Shown in pieces: positions 539 through 5,235 of a stretch of 5,576 nucleotides of DNA. How positions within the stretch are numbered: position 1 is the first letter of the stretch; every line of letters begins with the position of its first letter. Made by a program: the position numbers and the translations under genes. Location: NCBI GenBank assembly GCA_030620115.1, contig JAUXFG010000214.1, positions 1 through 5,576 on the forward strand, read 5' to 3'. The notes beneath the pieces are model-generated. The model had not been told where the DNA came from, did no database searches, and worked only from the letters and a program-made list of their open reading frames with translations. The stretch is from Candidatus Fermentibacterota bacterium. GTDB lineage: Bacteria > JAFGKV01.

Positions 539-556
539 CGCTTGTAACGCGTCCAT

Positions 557-610
557 TAACCCGGACTTCTCACCGGCTTCGCTTCGAAAGCCGGTGAGAA
601 GTCCGGGTTA
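557..610. repeat. Perfect 23-bp inverted repeat (hairpin), compact member of a dispersed repeat family
   Basis: The arms at 557-579 and 588-610 are perfect reverse complements of each other (left arm begins TAACCCGGACTTCTCACC) around an 8-base loop, CGCTTCGA. Positions 574-610 match 5198-5234 at 34 of 37 bases, so this is one copy of a family that recurs about 4.6 kb away. It sits between divergent genes, and no T-run follows either arm, so it is not a standard intrinsic terminator. The arm ends (TAACCC...GGGTTA) equal the terminal inverted repeat of the 5016-5235 element, so this looks like a minimal MITE or REP-type hairpin. No clear target-site duplication is visible. Confidence 0.85.
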
Positions 611-611
611 G

Positions 612-640
612 TTGAGCAGCAGGATCCATATGCATAGATT
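612..640 (+). promoter_or_regulatory. Candidate sigma-70-type promoter for the HAD phosphatase gene
   Basis: TTGAGC (612-617) and TAGATT (635-640) are separated by exactly 17 bases, each matching 4 of 6 consensus positions. Transcription would start near 647, giving a leader of about 35 bases before the ATG at 682. The -35 hexamer begins two bases after the right arm of the 557-610 inverted repeat, so the repeat insertion may have shaped this promoter. Confidence 0.35.
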
Positions 641-681
641 CGGCGGAATCGTTCTCTTCTCTGGAATCCGAGACGGATGGC

Positions 682-1446
682 ATGATGGTGGGACTGAAGA
701 TCAAGCCTGAGCTGGTTTGCACAGATGGCTCCAAGAGGATACCGACTCCCGGCTTGGTCGTTCTCTGGGACATAGACGGTACCCTCATGTGGTCGAACGG
801 CGCCGGCAGGGCGGCCATGGAGCGTGCCTTTGTCACACAGTTCGGTATCCACGATGCCCTGAAGGGCATTGAGTTGGCGGGAAGAACAGACGAGGCCATA
901 CTCTTGGATGCAATGGGTCGATGCAGCGTGGAGGTGCAGGAGACCATGGTCTCTCAGTTCAAGACTCTCTACTACTCATTCTTGGAGGTGGAGCTCAACT
1001 TATCAAGAAGAACGCCATGGGTCTTGCCAGGTGTTGTAACCGCTCTTCAGGGCATCGAAGCAGACTCTCGATTCATTTCCGGTCTTCTCACGGGCAACTG
1101 GCGGACGTCGGCATACACAAAACTTGGTTCCGTGGGGCTTGAGAGATGGTTCTCTTTTGGGGCCTTTGGAGGGGAAGCTCCCTCCCGAGAGGCCTTGTTG
1201 CCATTGGCGCTTGAGAGAGCCGCGCAGGTTTCCGGTGAAGCAATACCGCCGCAGAGAGCGGTTATCGTAGGCGATACTCCGCGGGATGTGGCGGTTGGCA
1301 AGGCCCATGATGCGAAGACAATTGCCGTGGCCACCGGACTTCATTCATCTGACGAGCTGGCCGCTACTTCTCCTGATCTGTTGCTGGGCGATCTGTCTGG
1401 CCATGAGTTGCAGCAGAGCCTCCGGCTCTGGCATGCACAGTCTTGA
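682..1446 (+). CDS. HAD-superfamily hydrolase, phosphoglycolate-phosphatase-like
   Basis: This is a 254-residue cytoplasmic phosphatase of the haloacid dehalogenase superfamily, probably acting on a small phosphorylated metabolite. All core motifs are visible: motif I DIDGTL (30-35) with nucleophile D30 and acid/base D32; motif II LLTGN (135-139) with T137; a lysine suited to motif III at K147 in TKLGSVGLERWF; and motif IV VIVGDTPRDV (194-203) with D198 and D202 for magnesium. The stretch of about 75 residues between motifs I and II is mostly helical, as in a C1 cap like that of phosphoglycolate phosphatases. ATG 682 is followed directly by a second ATG at 685, and neither has a good Shine-Dalgarno. 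The frame is open back to 616 but holds no other ATG or GTG start. About 25 residues precede motif I, more than usual, so a later start is possible. The gene stands alone, divergent from ptb and convergent with the next unit. The exact substrate cannot be told from sequence. Confidence 0.88.
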   Translation: MMVGLKIKPELVCTDGSKRIPTPGLVVLWDIDGTLMWSNGAGRAAMERAFVTQFGIHDALKGIELAGRTDEAILLDAMGRCSVEVQETMVSQFKTLYYSFLEVELNLSRRTPWVLPGVVTALQGIEADSRFISGLLTGNWRTSAYTKLGSVGLERWFSFGAFGGEAPSREALLPLALERAAQVSGEAIPPQRAVIVGDTPRDVAVGKAHDAKTIAVATGLHSSDELAATSPDLLLGDLSGHELQQSLRLWHAQS

Positions 1447-1535
1447 CCCGCATTTTCTCCAGAGGGGCTCCCCTCGCAAGAAGAGCTGATTGCTCCGGTC
1501 GGGAGGAGAGAGAGCCAAAAGGTCTTGGGTTGTGA

Positions 1536-1571
1536 AACTTATTAAGTTCCTGCGCAGAAACTTAATAAGTT
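1536..1571. repeat. 36-bp near-perfect nested palindrome between convergent genes
   Basis: The 13-bp arms AACTTATTAAGTT (1536-1548) and AACTTAATAAGTT (1559-1571) are exact reverse complements. Between them lies CTGCGCAG (1550-1557), itself a perfect palindrome, so over 36 bases only the pair 1549/1558 (C/A) is unmatched. Each arm is also internally palindromic (AACTTA, one base, TAAGTT), giving four copies of an AACTTA-type half-site. It occupies the 242-base gap (1447-1688) between the 3' ends of two converging genes; nothing else convincing was found in that gap. No U-tract follows on either strand, so a classical terminator is not shown. It could be a cruciform or transcript-end hairpin, a protein-binding site, or a mobile-element remnant. 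Confidence 0.85.
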
Positions 1572-1688
1572 GTATAGAAACCGAGAAACAACATATGAAC
1601 CGAAATTCGACCATTCGCCATCATACATAGGTCGGCGTCTTGGAAGATCATTGCGGGGAACCGTTCCGGACGATACATGCACGACGCA

Positions 1689-3683
1689 TCAGCCAGAGGT
1701 GATTGCCGCTTGGTCCATGGCGAATTCAGGATATACCCAGTAGTGGAAGGAATGGACGGCACCCTCCATGTCGAAATGAACTACGCCACCATACGCCAAG
1801 GGAATCTCGAGATAGGTGAATCCCTCTTCCAACGAGACTACCCCATTGAACACCTCGATCCCATCTGCAGCCACCCGCAGTCTTGAACGTCTCACCGAGA
1901 GGGCGACAGGAGACTTGTCGAACTCCTCCAGTATGTTTCCCTGAAACGATCCCCTGTACCTGCAAACAAGGGTCCCGCCATTTTCCGGTACTGGCAGGTC
2001 AAATTCCTCGGCAATGATTCCTGGTCTCCCCCCATCCCAAAACCCATCGCCCTCCATGAGGAAACTCCCCAGCGGACGTTCCAACGAGTCGCGGAACTTA
2101 TACCGGCATGCGATTTCGGAAGACGGATCACCTACATCAAGCTCGGAATAGGGATCGCCATAGGGGGCTTGGTCTTTGATCTTCGAGAGATCGAGGAGTC
2201 TTGCTTCAGCGATATTCTTGTACCTTCGCATGCATGACTTCAACTGTTGTGTAGTGAATTGAGAGAACCATCGCTCGGTCAGGCTATTCTCATAATAGGA
2301 AACAAAGGCAACACGTGTGGGATACAGCTTCTGAACAAGCTCGGATATCTCGAGTGGCCGGAAATAGCTCCTCACATAAGCGCCAAGATATGGGTTGGAT
2401 GCGGGGGAGAGGGTATGGCATTTCAATCGGCGGTCGGCCCAGTAAGAGACGCTGTACGAGGCATCGAGTACCTCAGTCTCGGACCACTCCGATAGGAGGT
2501 GATCAGTAATCTGCTTATCACACGCGATCTGCGCCTTGACGTTTCTCTGCCCCGGGATCGCGCCGAAGAACTGCAGCCCAAGCATGAGTGAGAAGAATAC
2601 TGTCATGGGAACGTAGAGGGATATGCCCCTGATCTGGATGCCTCGTACGAACCAGAGTGCAAATCCGAAGAAGAAAGGCGCCATGAAGCTGATATGCCTG
2701 TTCTGGTGTGCGGCGGAGAACAGGGTGAATGAATCTCCCACAATGGCAATCAAGAGGTATGAAGACAGAATGGCAAGCCACCACTTCTTGTACTTTGCGA
2801 GACCGAGCAGCGCCAGAATGAAGAGAAAAGGCGGAAAAGATCCCAACCAACCGGAACCCTCACTCCCTATCTTCGCACTGGTGGGGAAGATGCCCAAGAT
2901 GCCCCCTTTGATCTGGTCGGTTATCCCAGAGAATGCCACAGCGATGCTTCCCCCAAAGCCCTCGTACTGCACGATATTCTGGGGGCCAACTCCCTGGGAT
3001 ACGAAGCTTCCCGTAAGGATCTTGTAGAGGAGAGGAGGGATCAACAGGGGAAGAAGGCCCGGCAAGAATCTCCACAGCCTTGATTTCCCATGGGTCGTGG
3101 AGAAGAGCAGCACAAGAAGGAGATAGACCATTATCCCTTCCGGGCGCGTGAGCCCTGCCAATATGCTGAACAGGATGAATAGAGGGAATGAATCAATGAA
3201 TGCAAGCGCGCCCCAGAAGAATACAAAGAAGAATCCGAAGTTGGTATGGAATATGTTACTAAAAATCCCAGTGAAGATCATGCTCAATAGGGTTGCCGGG
3301 AATGCAACTTCTGGAATGGATCTCTTGTGGAACCTCCATATGAAATACGCACTACAGAGCGCAATGATGAGGCACTCGATATATGCCCACAGGATAAAAC
3401 TCGAGGGAGATCGAAAGCCTAGCCAATAACCCCCAGAGAAGAGGAGAGGGCTCAAGAGATCCGATAGCATGGTTGATGGCGGGTCGCCAGGCAGAAGTTG
3501 AAGGGGATGGCCATGAGCCAAGGTTCTCGCCATCATCAGCGTATTCATGGTGTCTGGATGGACCGGAGTCCAGATGCCGGTCTGGCTGTCGTACCCCATC
3601 ATCAGATAGATGACCCATTGGAGCACCACCACCACGAGGATGAGAAGAAGCCTGTAGCGGGGTTTCGTCACGCCGGCACTCAC
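1689..3683 (-). CDS. GT-C-like multi-pass membrane glycosyltransferase with large soluble C-terminal region
   Basis: This 664-residue integral membrane protein is best read as a GT-C-fold glycosyltransferase, a class that transfers sugars from lipid-phosphate donors on the outer face of the cytoplasmic membrane. Seen: about ten hydrophobic segments (residues 11-30, 93-115, 126-145, 147-164, 166-193, 206-221, 283-297, 301-316, 332-347, 353-374). A first external loop carries HPD (42-44) and LSDLLSPLL (73-81), where GT-C enzymes usually place catalytic and metal-binding acids. LTRPEG (178-183) is a motif I associate with polytopic GT-C proteins. Residues about 375-664 are soluble; the last 100 or so look beta-rich and sandwich-like, ending in SFHYWVYP. 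Start: GTG at 3683, preceded by GGAGG six bases upstream and 13 nt after the upstream stop. The frame stays open to a TTG at 3743, but that start lacks this site and would overlap the upstream gene by 47 nt. Coupling to the SGNH gene suggests a joint role in surface glycan synthesis. Donor and acceptor are unknown. Confidence 0.72.
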   Translation of the reverse strand: MSAGVTKPRYRLLLILVVVVLQWVIYLMMGYDSQTGIWTPVHPDTMNTLMMARTLAHGHPLQLLPGDPPSTMLSDLLSPLLFSGGYWLGFRSPSSFILWAYIECLIIALCSAYFIWRFHKRSIPEVAFPATLLSMIFTGIFSNIFHTNFGFFFVFFWGALAFIDSFPLFILFSILAGLTRPEGIMVYLLLVLLFSTTHGKSRLWRFLPGLLPLLIPPLLYKILTGSFVSQGVGPQNIVQYEGFGGSIAVAFSGITDQIKGGILGIFPTSAKIGSEGSGWLGSFPPFLFILALLGLAKYKKWWLAILSSYLLIAIVGDSFTLFSAAHQNRHISFMAPFFFGFALWFVRGIQIRGISLYVPMTVFFSLMLGLQFFGAIPGQRNVKAQIACDKQITDHLLSEWSETEVLDASYSVSYWADRRLKCHTLSPASNPYLGAYVRSYFRPLEISELVQKLYPTRVAFVSYYENSLTERWFSQFTTQQLKSCMRRYKNIAEARLLDLSKIKDQAPYGDPYSELDVGDPSSEIACRYKFRDSLERPLGSFLMEGDGFWDGGRPGIIAEEFDLPVPENGGTLVCRYRGSFQGNILEEFDKSPVALSVRRSRLRVAADGIEVFNGVVSLEEGFTYLEIPLAYGGVVHFDMEGAVHSFHYWVYPEFAMDQAAITSG

Positions 3684-3689
3684 ATGAAA

Positions 3690-3694
3690 CCTCC
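3690..3694 (-). promoter_or_regulatory. Shine-Dalgarno that fixes the GTG start of the GT-C-like gene
   Basis: GGAGG on the minus strand lies six bases before the GTG at 3683, in the 13-nt gap after the SGNH stop codon (3699-3697). It decides the start in favour of GTG 3683 over the longer reading from TTG 3743. Confidence 0.7.
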
Positions 3695-3696
3695 GT

Positions 3697-4743
3697 TCAT
3701 GGTTCCTCTTGGGATGAAAGAATTCCTGACAGGGAGCGAGCAATCACCTCTGCAGCGATTTTATGGCCCGCTGTTGAGAAATGACTCGCATCATTGAATA
3801 ACTCCACGTCACTGTTCTGCAAATGAAATGATGAGAAACAAGGAAGAAGGTCGACAACTTGGACGCCATGGCGGTTGAAATATGAGAGCAACCTCTGCTG
3901 GGGTTGAGAGGTGTTCGTTGGATCATCCAACTGGAATTCATATGGGGCGATTATCAGTAGAAACGGGATGTTGTTCACGGCAGCAATATCACGTATTCTA
4001 TCGATCTCCGACAGCGTAAGGATCCATGCATCCTCCAACTCATGACTCAGATAATCCTTTGCCATGTTCCTCACTTCGTATTCTTGCTTGTTACGGGACA
4101 TGTCGACGAGCTGACGAGCAAGTAACTCGAAGGTCCGGGAATGCCTGATCATCCAGCCGAATACCCCTGGTATTGAATGACGAGTGTCGATGCCAAAGAA
4201 GACATTATCACCGCCATACTGAGCGAGATTCCAATATCTCTCTACGACATCATTAAGACAGAACTGAAGGACAATCATATCAGGATCCAGAGCGAGACCG
4301 CGGATCTCCAAGTAGCGGAGCTCTTGAAATGTGGAATAGCCGGGGACCGCGCTGTTTATTATCTCGAATACCTTCCCTGTGCTCAATGAGGAGAGCAACT
4401 CCTCGGTCAATTGCGGATAGACATCTTCTACGTTGTCAATGCCGTCGCCCCATGAAACTGAGTCGCCTAGCAAAAGAATTTTCACCGCTGCCTTGAGATT
4501 CAAGGGCTTGTCACGGAAACCCAATTCGTTCGTTCTCAGAGGGCCAGTCGTGCGGGGCTTCAGGCGCCAGACAAGCACAGGATCCGGTTCAACTGTTCCC
4601 GCGATGCTTTTTCCTGTATTTCCGTGGCCGGAGAAGAGCCAGAATACGGCCTCTGCCAGGAGGGCGGCGGCCAGAAGCGGCACCAACGAGAATAGGAGCA
4701 GTTTATGAAGCGGCAACTTGGGGTAATGATGTTCAGTTCGCAT
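3697..4743 (-). CDS. Membrane-anchored SGNH/GDSL-family hydrolase or acyltransferase
   Basis: This is a 348-residue protein with one N-terminal membrane segment (about 13-37) and a soluble SGNH domain probably facing the periplasm or outside. The SGNH blocks are in order: block I LLGDSVSWGDG (91-101) with nucleophile S95; block II glycine G135 in SAVPGYST; block III N164 in FCLNDV; block V NDASHFSTAGH (317-327) giving the DxxH pair D318 and H321. TNELGFRD (71-78) before block I resembles a motif common in membrane-anchored polysaccharide-linked SGNH proteins. The family includes esterases that remove O-acyl groups from glycans and enzymes that add them; sequence alone does not decide. The ATG at 4743 lies 3 nt after the stop of a decayed upstream frame, with only a weak GGGA seven bases upstream, so translation may once have been coupled. 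The GT-C-like gene follows 13 nt downstream, which suggests one operon acting on one glycan. Confidence 0.8.
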   Translation of the reverse strand: MRTEHHYPKLPLHKLLLFSLVPLLAAALLAEAVFWLFSGHGNTGKSIAGTVEPDPVLVWRLKPRTTGPLRTNELGFRDKPLNLKAAVKILLLGDSVSWGDGIDNVEDVYPQLTEELLSSLSTGKVFEIINSAVPGYSTFQELRYLEIRGLALDPDMIVLQFCLNDVVERYWNLAQYGGDNVFFGIDTRHSIPGVFGWMIRHSRTFELLARQLVDMSRNKQEYEVRNMAKDYLSHELEDAWILTLSEIDRIRDIAAVNNIPFLLIIAPYEFQLDDPTNTSQPQQRLLSYFNRHGVQVVDLLPCFSSFHLQNSDVELFNDASHFSTAGHKIAAEVIARSLSGILSSQEEP

Positions 4744-4746
4744 TCT

Positions 4747-4964
4747 CTATTCCCGAATCAGTGCAACGGAAGGAGGAGACCTGCCCGTTGTATGGTCCGT
4801 GCTGGCCGTCCCCACCAAGTCGAAATGGTGTGATGCATGCAATGTCTTAATGATGTGCTTCCTCCACATTTCATTCCGGCCCGTCGCTCCTCAGATGGCT
4901 ATGATGAATCAATGTACACGGGTCTTGGGCATTCCTCAATTTCATCGCTCCTGCCATATGAAGC
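4747..4964 (-). pseudogene. Decayed C-terminal remnant of a protein gene upstream of the SGNH gene
   Basis: Two minus-strand frames read in succession look like degraded protein. The first (4964-4902) holds ASYGRSDEIEECPRPVYIDSS before a TAG at 4901-4899 and continues PSEERRAG. The second, offset by a frameshift around 4880-4898, is open from 4890 and reads GRNEMWRKHIIKTLHASHHF, then DLVGTASTDHTTGRSPPSVA and LIRE, stopping with TAG at 4749-4747. That stop lies 3 nt before the SGNH ATG, the spacing expected of a real operon neighbour, and residue composition is protein-like across the junction. The parent protein is not recognised. The closing pattern (W..HI...L..S..FDLV, then PPSVAL.R) faintly recalls soluble tails of membrane glycosyltransferases, but that is a guess. 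A nonsense codon plus a frameshift argue for a pseudogene; sequencing error is the main alternative. Confidence 0.45.
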
Positions 4965-4992
4965 TCATCATAGCTGGAGCCCTGAGCTTATT

Positions 4993-5036
4993 CTTGTGAG
5001 AAGTCCGGGCCAACCTTAGCCCGAACTTCTCACAAG
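4993..5036. repeat. 18-bp inverted repeat formed by two element ends facing each other
   Basis: The arms CTTGTGAGAAGTCCGGGC (4993-5010) and its reverse complement (5019-5036) differ at one position and flank an 8-base loop, CAACCTTA. The left arm with its CAA (4996-5013) resembles a right-hand end of the repeat family (TGAGAAGTCCGGGCTAA, with CCAA for CTAA), and the right arm is the left end of the 5016-5235 element. Two ends therefore sit head to head with two bases between them. Only one end of the left-hand copy was found. Confidence 0.75.
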
Positions 5037-5235
5037 CTTTCGGCTGCAGCAGCCGATATGGCATCCCGCGTCCGACGCGGGACTTCGTTACGCTCTGTCG
5101 GTCGCCAGATACTTCGCTGGCGCTCAGCACAGGCTCCCCGCAGAGGATACGCCTGCGGGGTCCTCAGTCGCAAGCCTCGCATTCAGAACCATCTCGGCGG
5201 CTTCGCTTCGAAACCCGATGAGAAGTCCGGGCTAA
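5016..5235. mobile_element. MITE-like, hairpin-rich non-coding element of 220 bp
   Basis: The ends TTAGCCCGAACTTCTCA (5016-5032) and TGAGAAGTCCGGGCTAA (5219-5235) form 17-bp terminal inverted repeats with one mismatch. The interior is a chain of short hairpins: TCGGCTG/CAGCCGA (5040-5056, 3-base loop), TCCCGCGT/ACGCGGGA (5064-5082, 3-base loop), CGCCAG/CTGGCG (5103-5122) and CCCCGCAG/CTGCGGGG (5136-5160). The right part (5198-5235) repeats the right half of the hairpin at 557-610. No transposase or credible coding frame lies inside. Any IS family that mobilises it is unknown to me. No convincing target-site duplication is seen. A REP/BIME-like cluster or a structured RNA is the alternative reading. 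Confidence 0.6.

Follow-up and report, generated by a model that had tools for sequence, protein, structure and literature searches.

A family of hairpin-forming miniature elements in a Candidatus Fermentibacterota genome, probably mobilised by IS1380-type transposases

Copies in the window and in the genome

The window, i.e. the whole stretch of 5,576 nucleotides that was analysed (contig JAUXFG010000214.1 of a Candidatus Fermentibacterota bacterium), carries a compact copy, an extended copy and a solo end of a short repeat flanked by terminal inverted repeats and by target-type tetranucleotides:

556..559: left target-type flank of the compact element, TTAA (YTAR)
560..607, strand ".": compact element, with left terminal inverted repeat CCCGGACTTCTCACC, an 18-nt sub-terminal hairpin and right terminal inverted repeat GGTGAGAAGTCCGGG
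608..611: right target-type flank of the compact element, TTAG (YTAR)
4993..5009: third, solo end (CTTGTGAGAAGTCCGGG; partial-end match 4997-5009), remnant or inverted duplicate of the extended left end
5016..5019: left target-type flank of the extended element, TTAG
5020..5231, strand ".": extended element, 212-bp core, the standard form of about 177 bp plus inserted modules
5020..5033, strand +: left terminal inverted repeat of the extended element, CCCGAACTTCTCAC
5064..5082: M1 micro-hairpin TCCCGCGTCCGACGCGGGA in the extended element, standing where the standard form has 7 bp (CTGCCTG)
about 5103..5139: second inserted module of the extended element (CCAGATACTTCGCTGGCGCTCAGCACAGGCTCC...), edges approximate, compared by eye with the standard form
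5217..5231, strand +: right terminal inverted repeat of the extended element (GATGAGAAGTCCGGG)
5232..5235: right target-type flank of the extended element, CTAA

A first-pass annotation had drawn attention to positions 574-610 and 5198-5234, which are indeed identical at 34 of 37 bases, and had described one copy as a perfect 54-bp hairpin and the other as the right end of a 220-bp stretch. Both descriptions hold: positions 557-610 form a perfect 54-nt hairpin with 23-nt arms (557-579 and 588-610) and an 8-nt loop, a form that recurs at a second locus (L096:17448), and the stretch 5016-5235 consists of TTAG, the core 5020-5231 and CTAA. Inserted micro-hairpin modules account for most of the difference between the extended and the standard form. 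The solo end opposes the left end of the extended element (4993-5036), has the same private CACAAG bases and is apparently an inverted duplication, 17-19 bp long, of that left end. The window also carries a second inverted repeat (1536-1571; 18-nt arms, AACTTATTAAGTT...), about 90 bp 3' of a HAD-hydrolase gene; hairpin arms starting with TAAGTT have a few further occurrences in the sequence examined from this genome.

The genome (4.10 Mb, 296 contigs, 98% complete) was searched as a whole, by pattern and by family. With at most one mismatch, the terminal 13-mer TGAGAAGTCCGGG occurs 455 times (228 + 227) against 1 + 5 occurrences of the reversed pattern, and the 18-base end TARCCCGRAYTTCTCACC 384 times (197 + 187) against none in the control; this 18-base end is absent from two other genomes of the phylum. 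The annotation had predicted a high copy number and had named a lack of further copies as the finding that would speak against a dispersed family; the whole-genome count gave hundreds of ends instead. A BLAST search with the long copy matched about 40 places in the genome, at 72-92% identity or partially at higher identity.

The ends are terminal inverted repeats, (YTAR)CCCGGACTTCTCACC ... GGTGAGAAGTCCGGG(YTAR). In 1.57 Mb of the genome (38%), a sample whose contigs were picked partly for holding ends and whose densities are therefore not genome averages, adjacent ends are arranged left-then-right (R-F) 99 times, against 12 FR, 10 RR and 8 FF pairs. The modal R-F distance of 164 corresponds to an element of about 177 bp, and distances of about 35 in compact copies and up to 220 in long ones agree with the compact and extended forms with shared ends that the annotation had proposed. 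All these elements are short (38-230 bp between ends) and devoid of any long ORF, and their midpoints lie within ORFs in 32 of 93 cases, compared with 79% of random positions (greedy ORF calls, hence approximate values).

Fold, distribution and insertion sites

The alignment of 20 module-free copies (A1) yields one long hairpin in which 94.2% of the cells are paired. Pairs altered on both sides number 23, against 9.2 +/- 2.0 in shuffles (0/500), a count that is not a probability since the copies are related, and slid controls give 6-10. The interior of these elements is non-coding, one long imperfect hairpin maintained through compensatory change. Compact copies would derive from this form by internal deletion, and extended copies by the replacement of short segments by micro-hairpin modules.

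At least nine further groups of bacteria carry the same ends, with tens of copies per genome. The scan of a species-genome collection with YTARCCCGGACTTCTCACC gave at least 72 stretches, including a few single matches due to chance (about 7 expected by estimate); among the matches listed are Planctomycetota, Myxococcota, Acidobacteriota, several Proteobacteria, Eisenbacteria, Balneolaceae, Gemmatimonadetes, Verrucomicrobia and others. The 23 genomes among the matches listed, like nearly all foreign genomes considered here metagenome assemblies, carry 2 to 124 ends each, the reversed control giving no match in 22 of them and a single match in one. The bare end had no match among the plasmids searched. 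In Balneolaceae, an ORF terminating at a repeat end was rejected as a transposase: it is a host gene, conserved in a relative without the repeat.

By their interiors, copies from different genomes can be sorted into at least three classes. Class I (about 160-177 bp) includes the form of the genome under study and is marked by the blocks TCGTCGCGA and CTRCTGC, one per end. This arrangement is present in 11 of the 32 foreign copies and in none of 640 shuffles, although these copies are partly non-independent (several stem from a single genome). Gamma- and alphaproteobacterial genomes hold two further classes, measuring about 240 and 265 bp. The fold is strong in most foreign copies tested (z -4 to -13; the exception is L232), and an apical CRTA...TAYG stem is recurrent, as judged by eye. 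The exact interior pattern has no match in the genome contig collection, so that the interior is lineage-specific. Globally, ends persist while interiors differ completely between lineages. Separately, two CCCGGATTTCTCACC ends on an IMG/VR contig enclose 1 kb (L286:2328-3353) with no long transposase ORF, in a sequence with GCGATCGC octamers; this is possibly a larger non-autonomous relative.

ERIC and Correia elements, two known groups of MITEs, have ends and a target other than those of the elements described here. They resemble them as imperfect palindromes of 100-200 bp, mostly intergenic and present in tens to hundreds of copies (PMC10969869). They are taxonomically narrow, whereas the end described here occurs in many phyla.

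Outward from the ends, conservation stops after YTA(R) and is followed by random sequence. At one locus (L092), the element lies within a 36-bp module that is uninterrupted elsewhere; the comparison of the empty module (GGGC-GTAG-CCTGG) with the filled one (GGGC-GTAG-[CCCGG...CCGGG]-GTAG-CCTGG) indicates a 4-bp target duplication. Among 32 foreign copies, 19 have identical 4-mers on their two flanks, where 14.0 would be expected (P 0.008; per-letter P 0.0018). In the genome under study, there are 15 such copies against 10.4 expected (P 0.08; per-letter P 0.0185), many copies have unequal flanking 4-mers, and the first outside base correlates both with its hairpin partner and with a duplication. 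One further nested junction is common to L068 and L089, and L126 has one side of it; this composite was therefore probably copied, or a single event was spread by recombination. An IS630/mariner origin (TA target) was considered and rejected, as the genome has no DDE_3 gene and L092 suits a duplication of 4 bp better than one of 2 bp.

Strong folding, covariation and a location mostly outside ORFs would also suit a structured RNA or a transcription-related hairpin (terminator or processing element), amplified by other means and whose ends are conserved for function rather than for transposition. Nevertheless, the element has only sub-threshold matches in Rfam, none above the gathering score, the ends stay while the interiors change, and several features speak for transposition: the duplicated target, the nested insertions, the flanking YTAR and the ends in common with IS1380 (see below). 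Such an RNA origin is thus very improbable. By contrast, the annotation's reading of the repeats as MITEs agrees with the hundreds of ends, the terminal inverted repeats, the target duplication, the nested insertions and the depletion in ORFs.

IS1380 and other candidate transposases

The annotation had also offered a REP-type alternative, considered here as the movement of a REP/BIME-type element by a RAYT (Y1 HUH) transposase. Indeed, the genome encodes four PF01797 proteins, three of them matching the REP-associated tyrosine transposase model (two above the cut-off), and an element end follows one of the four genes at a distance of about 130 bp. However, none of these genes has the element on both sides, the two long REP-type genes have their own inverted ends (GGGGTCAG...), unlike those of the MITEs, and the element has symmetrical repeats at its two termini and duplicates 4 bp of its target, a duplication that is not known to result from HUH insertion. 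Similarly, REP/REPIN sequences associated with RAYT are small hairpins in high copy number (PMC3116915), but the MITEs described here are longer, display a target duplication and have no RAYT with their ends. A REP-type origin therefore appears highly unlikely. The REP-type tyrosine transposases of L063:907-1872 and L064:1471-2445, bounded by GGGGTCAG... ends, have a C-terminal stretch that matches DnaA (E 8e-9 and 2e-13).

An IS701-type insertion sequence of the same genome (C81) is bordered by CTAG on either side, has ends that begin with CCC and could be thought to mobilise the MITEs. Its ends (CCCTACAACGACNGTTAG), however, agree with theirs at only 4-5 of 15 positions, and DDE_5 copies in six other carrier genomes are devoid of MITE ends, so that this IS701 origin is also most unlikely.

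The candidate retained is IS1380. In IMG/VR, the end is present on four contigs, and on one of them (L287, same contig as L325) it adjoins an IS1380 gene, which led this family to be considered as a partner. A PF13701 search over 26 genomes revealed, in the gammaproteobacterial genome G045, a 485-aa IS1380 transposase (L295; NF033539, E 7e-118), to which the L287 one is 61% identical. Its gene lies between CCCGGATTTCTCTCC and CCCGGATTTCTCACC, both flanking ends corresponding to CCCGGATTTCTC(T/A)CC, and G045 also carries 124 of the MITE ends. IS1380 copies from G052, IMG/VR, Bradyrhizobium and Halomonas have ends identical at 11-14 of 15 positions; the Bradyrhizobium and Halomonas plasmid copies (11-12 of 15) display CTAG or TTAG flanks, with CTAG on both sides in Bradyrhizobium. 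Furthermore, PF13701 proteins above the cut-off were found in 11 of the 23 foreign genomes with ends against 1 of 14 control genomes; the 12 end-bearing genomes in which none reached it are incomplete assemblies.

These IS1380 elements (PF13701/NF033539) and the MITEs thus have in common the terminal inverted repeat CCCG(G/C)A(C/T)TTCTCA and CTAG-type flanks, the likeness extending over about 15 bp; the former differ in carrying a transposase (about 1.6-1.8 kb) and in their sub-terminal sequence. MITE ends were not seen in distant IS1380 copies (ISPme1, IS1247 and IS1678 groups), so that the match is limited to a subgroup of the family.

In the whole 98%-complete genome under study, no PF13701 protein lies above the cut-off and a single match has E 9e-4. 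In 38% of this genome, no autonomous copy was found, and R-F pairs 0.5-3.5 kb apart enclose apparent host genes in the cases read. The transposase postulated by the annotation elsewhere in the genome is thus matched in type and ends by IS1380 from other genomes, whereas the genome itself offers only the sub-threshold match. The partner transposases of MITEs can be lost, and a cognate gene in the same genome is typical but not required. Because no IS1380 gene was found there, the family may be immobile in its own genome, stranded, or else driven in trans.

Taken together, these data make it likely that the repeats are a family of MITEs, i.e. non-autonomous DNA transposons on which DDE transposases of the IS1380 type act in trans. 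Such trans-mobilisation, deduced from shared ends, would involve the recognition of the 13-15-bp ends CCCG(G/C)A(C/T)TTCTCACC by the transposase, the excision of the element (with a cutting mechanism proposed by analogy with piggyBac) and its insertion at YTAR targets (CTAG, TTAG, TTAA), with duplication of 4 bp. IS1380 is an outgroup to piggyBac and its prokaryotic relative, and piggyBac elements have CCC ends and a TTAA target (PMC10813416). The piggyBac superfamily and the MITEs therefore both display CCC-starting ends and a 4-bp TTAA-type target, a likeness that is consistent with, but not proof of, a shared mechanism; piggyBac elements are eukaryotic, have a stricter target and are related to the MITEs through IS1380 only.

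Micro-hairpins and significance

The M1 module of the extended form is one of the micro-hairpins M1, M2 and M3 (16-28 nt). In the sequence examined from this genome, these occur within the MITEs, but also within tandem heptamers and an unrelated REP-like palindrome. Of 87 distinct copies with an empty partner, 55 stand in place of exactly 7 bp; about six host sequences are involved, one of them the unrelated palindrome GGGCACGG[CATGCCG]TGCCC. Other replaced lengths are 5 bp in heptamer tracts, 9 bp for M3, and longer ones that may result from recombination between two copies; most replaced segments have C as first and G as last base. A partial repeat of the analysis, restricted to M2-type and similar hairpins by a pattern that missed M1, gave 24 replacements of 7 bp out of 46, compared with none of the 31 control windows for which the partner differed in length. 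As copies at the same site of the MITE probably derive from one event, independent events are few.

Elhai et al. 2008 reportedly described the SDR elements of Nostoc as short hairpins that lie within minitransposons and tandem heptamers, a possible parallel to the micro-hairpins found here; in the latter, insertion replaces a short target segment, most often of 7 bp. Tentatively, and with more doubt than confidence, the micro-hairpins TCCCGCGnnnnnCGCGGGA and TCCGCCAGCTGGCGGA of the extended copies could represent a separate class of mobile DNA of 16-28 nt, which would replace a C...G-bounded segment, mostly of 7 bp, without simple insertion or target duplication. The 7-bp replacement itself is unexplained.

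No description of MITEs of IS1380 was found in the open-licence literature, and a search of open-licence papers by end sequences gave nothing relevant, which is weak evidence of novelty. The IS1380 link ties the intergenic hairpins of many uncultured bacteria to one transposase family. The ends and sub-terminal blocks common across phyla point to a very wide horizontal spread or to an old element. Furthermore, with their replacement of 7 bp, the nested micro-hairpins hint at a route of mobility outside the insertion mechanisms familiar to us.
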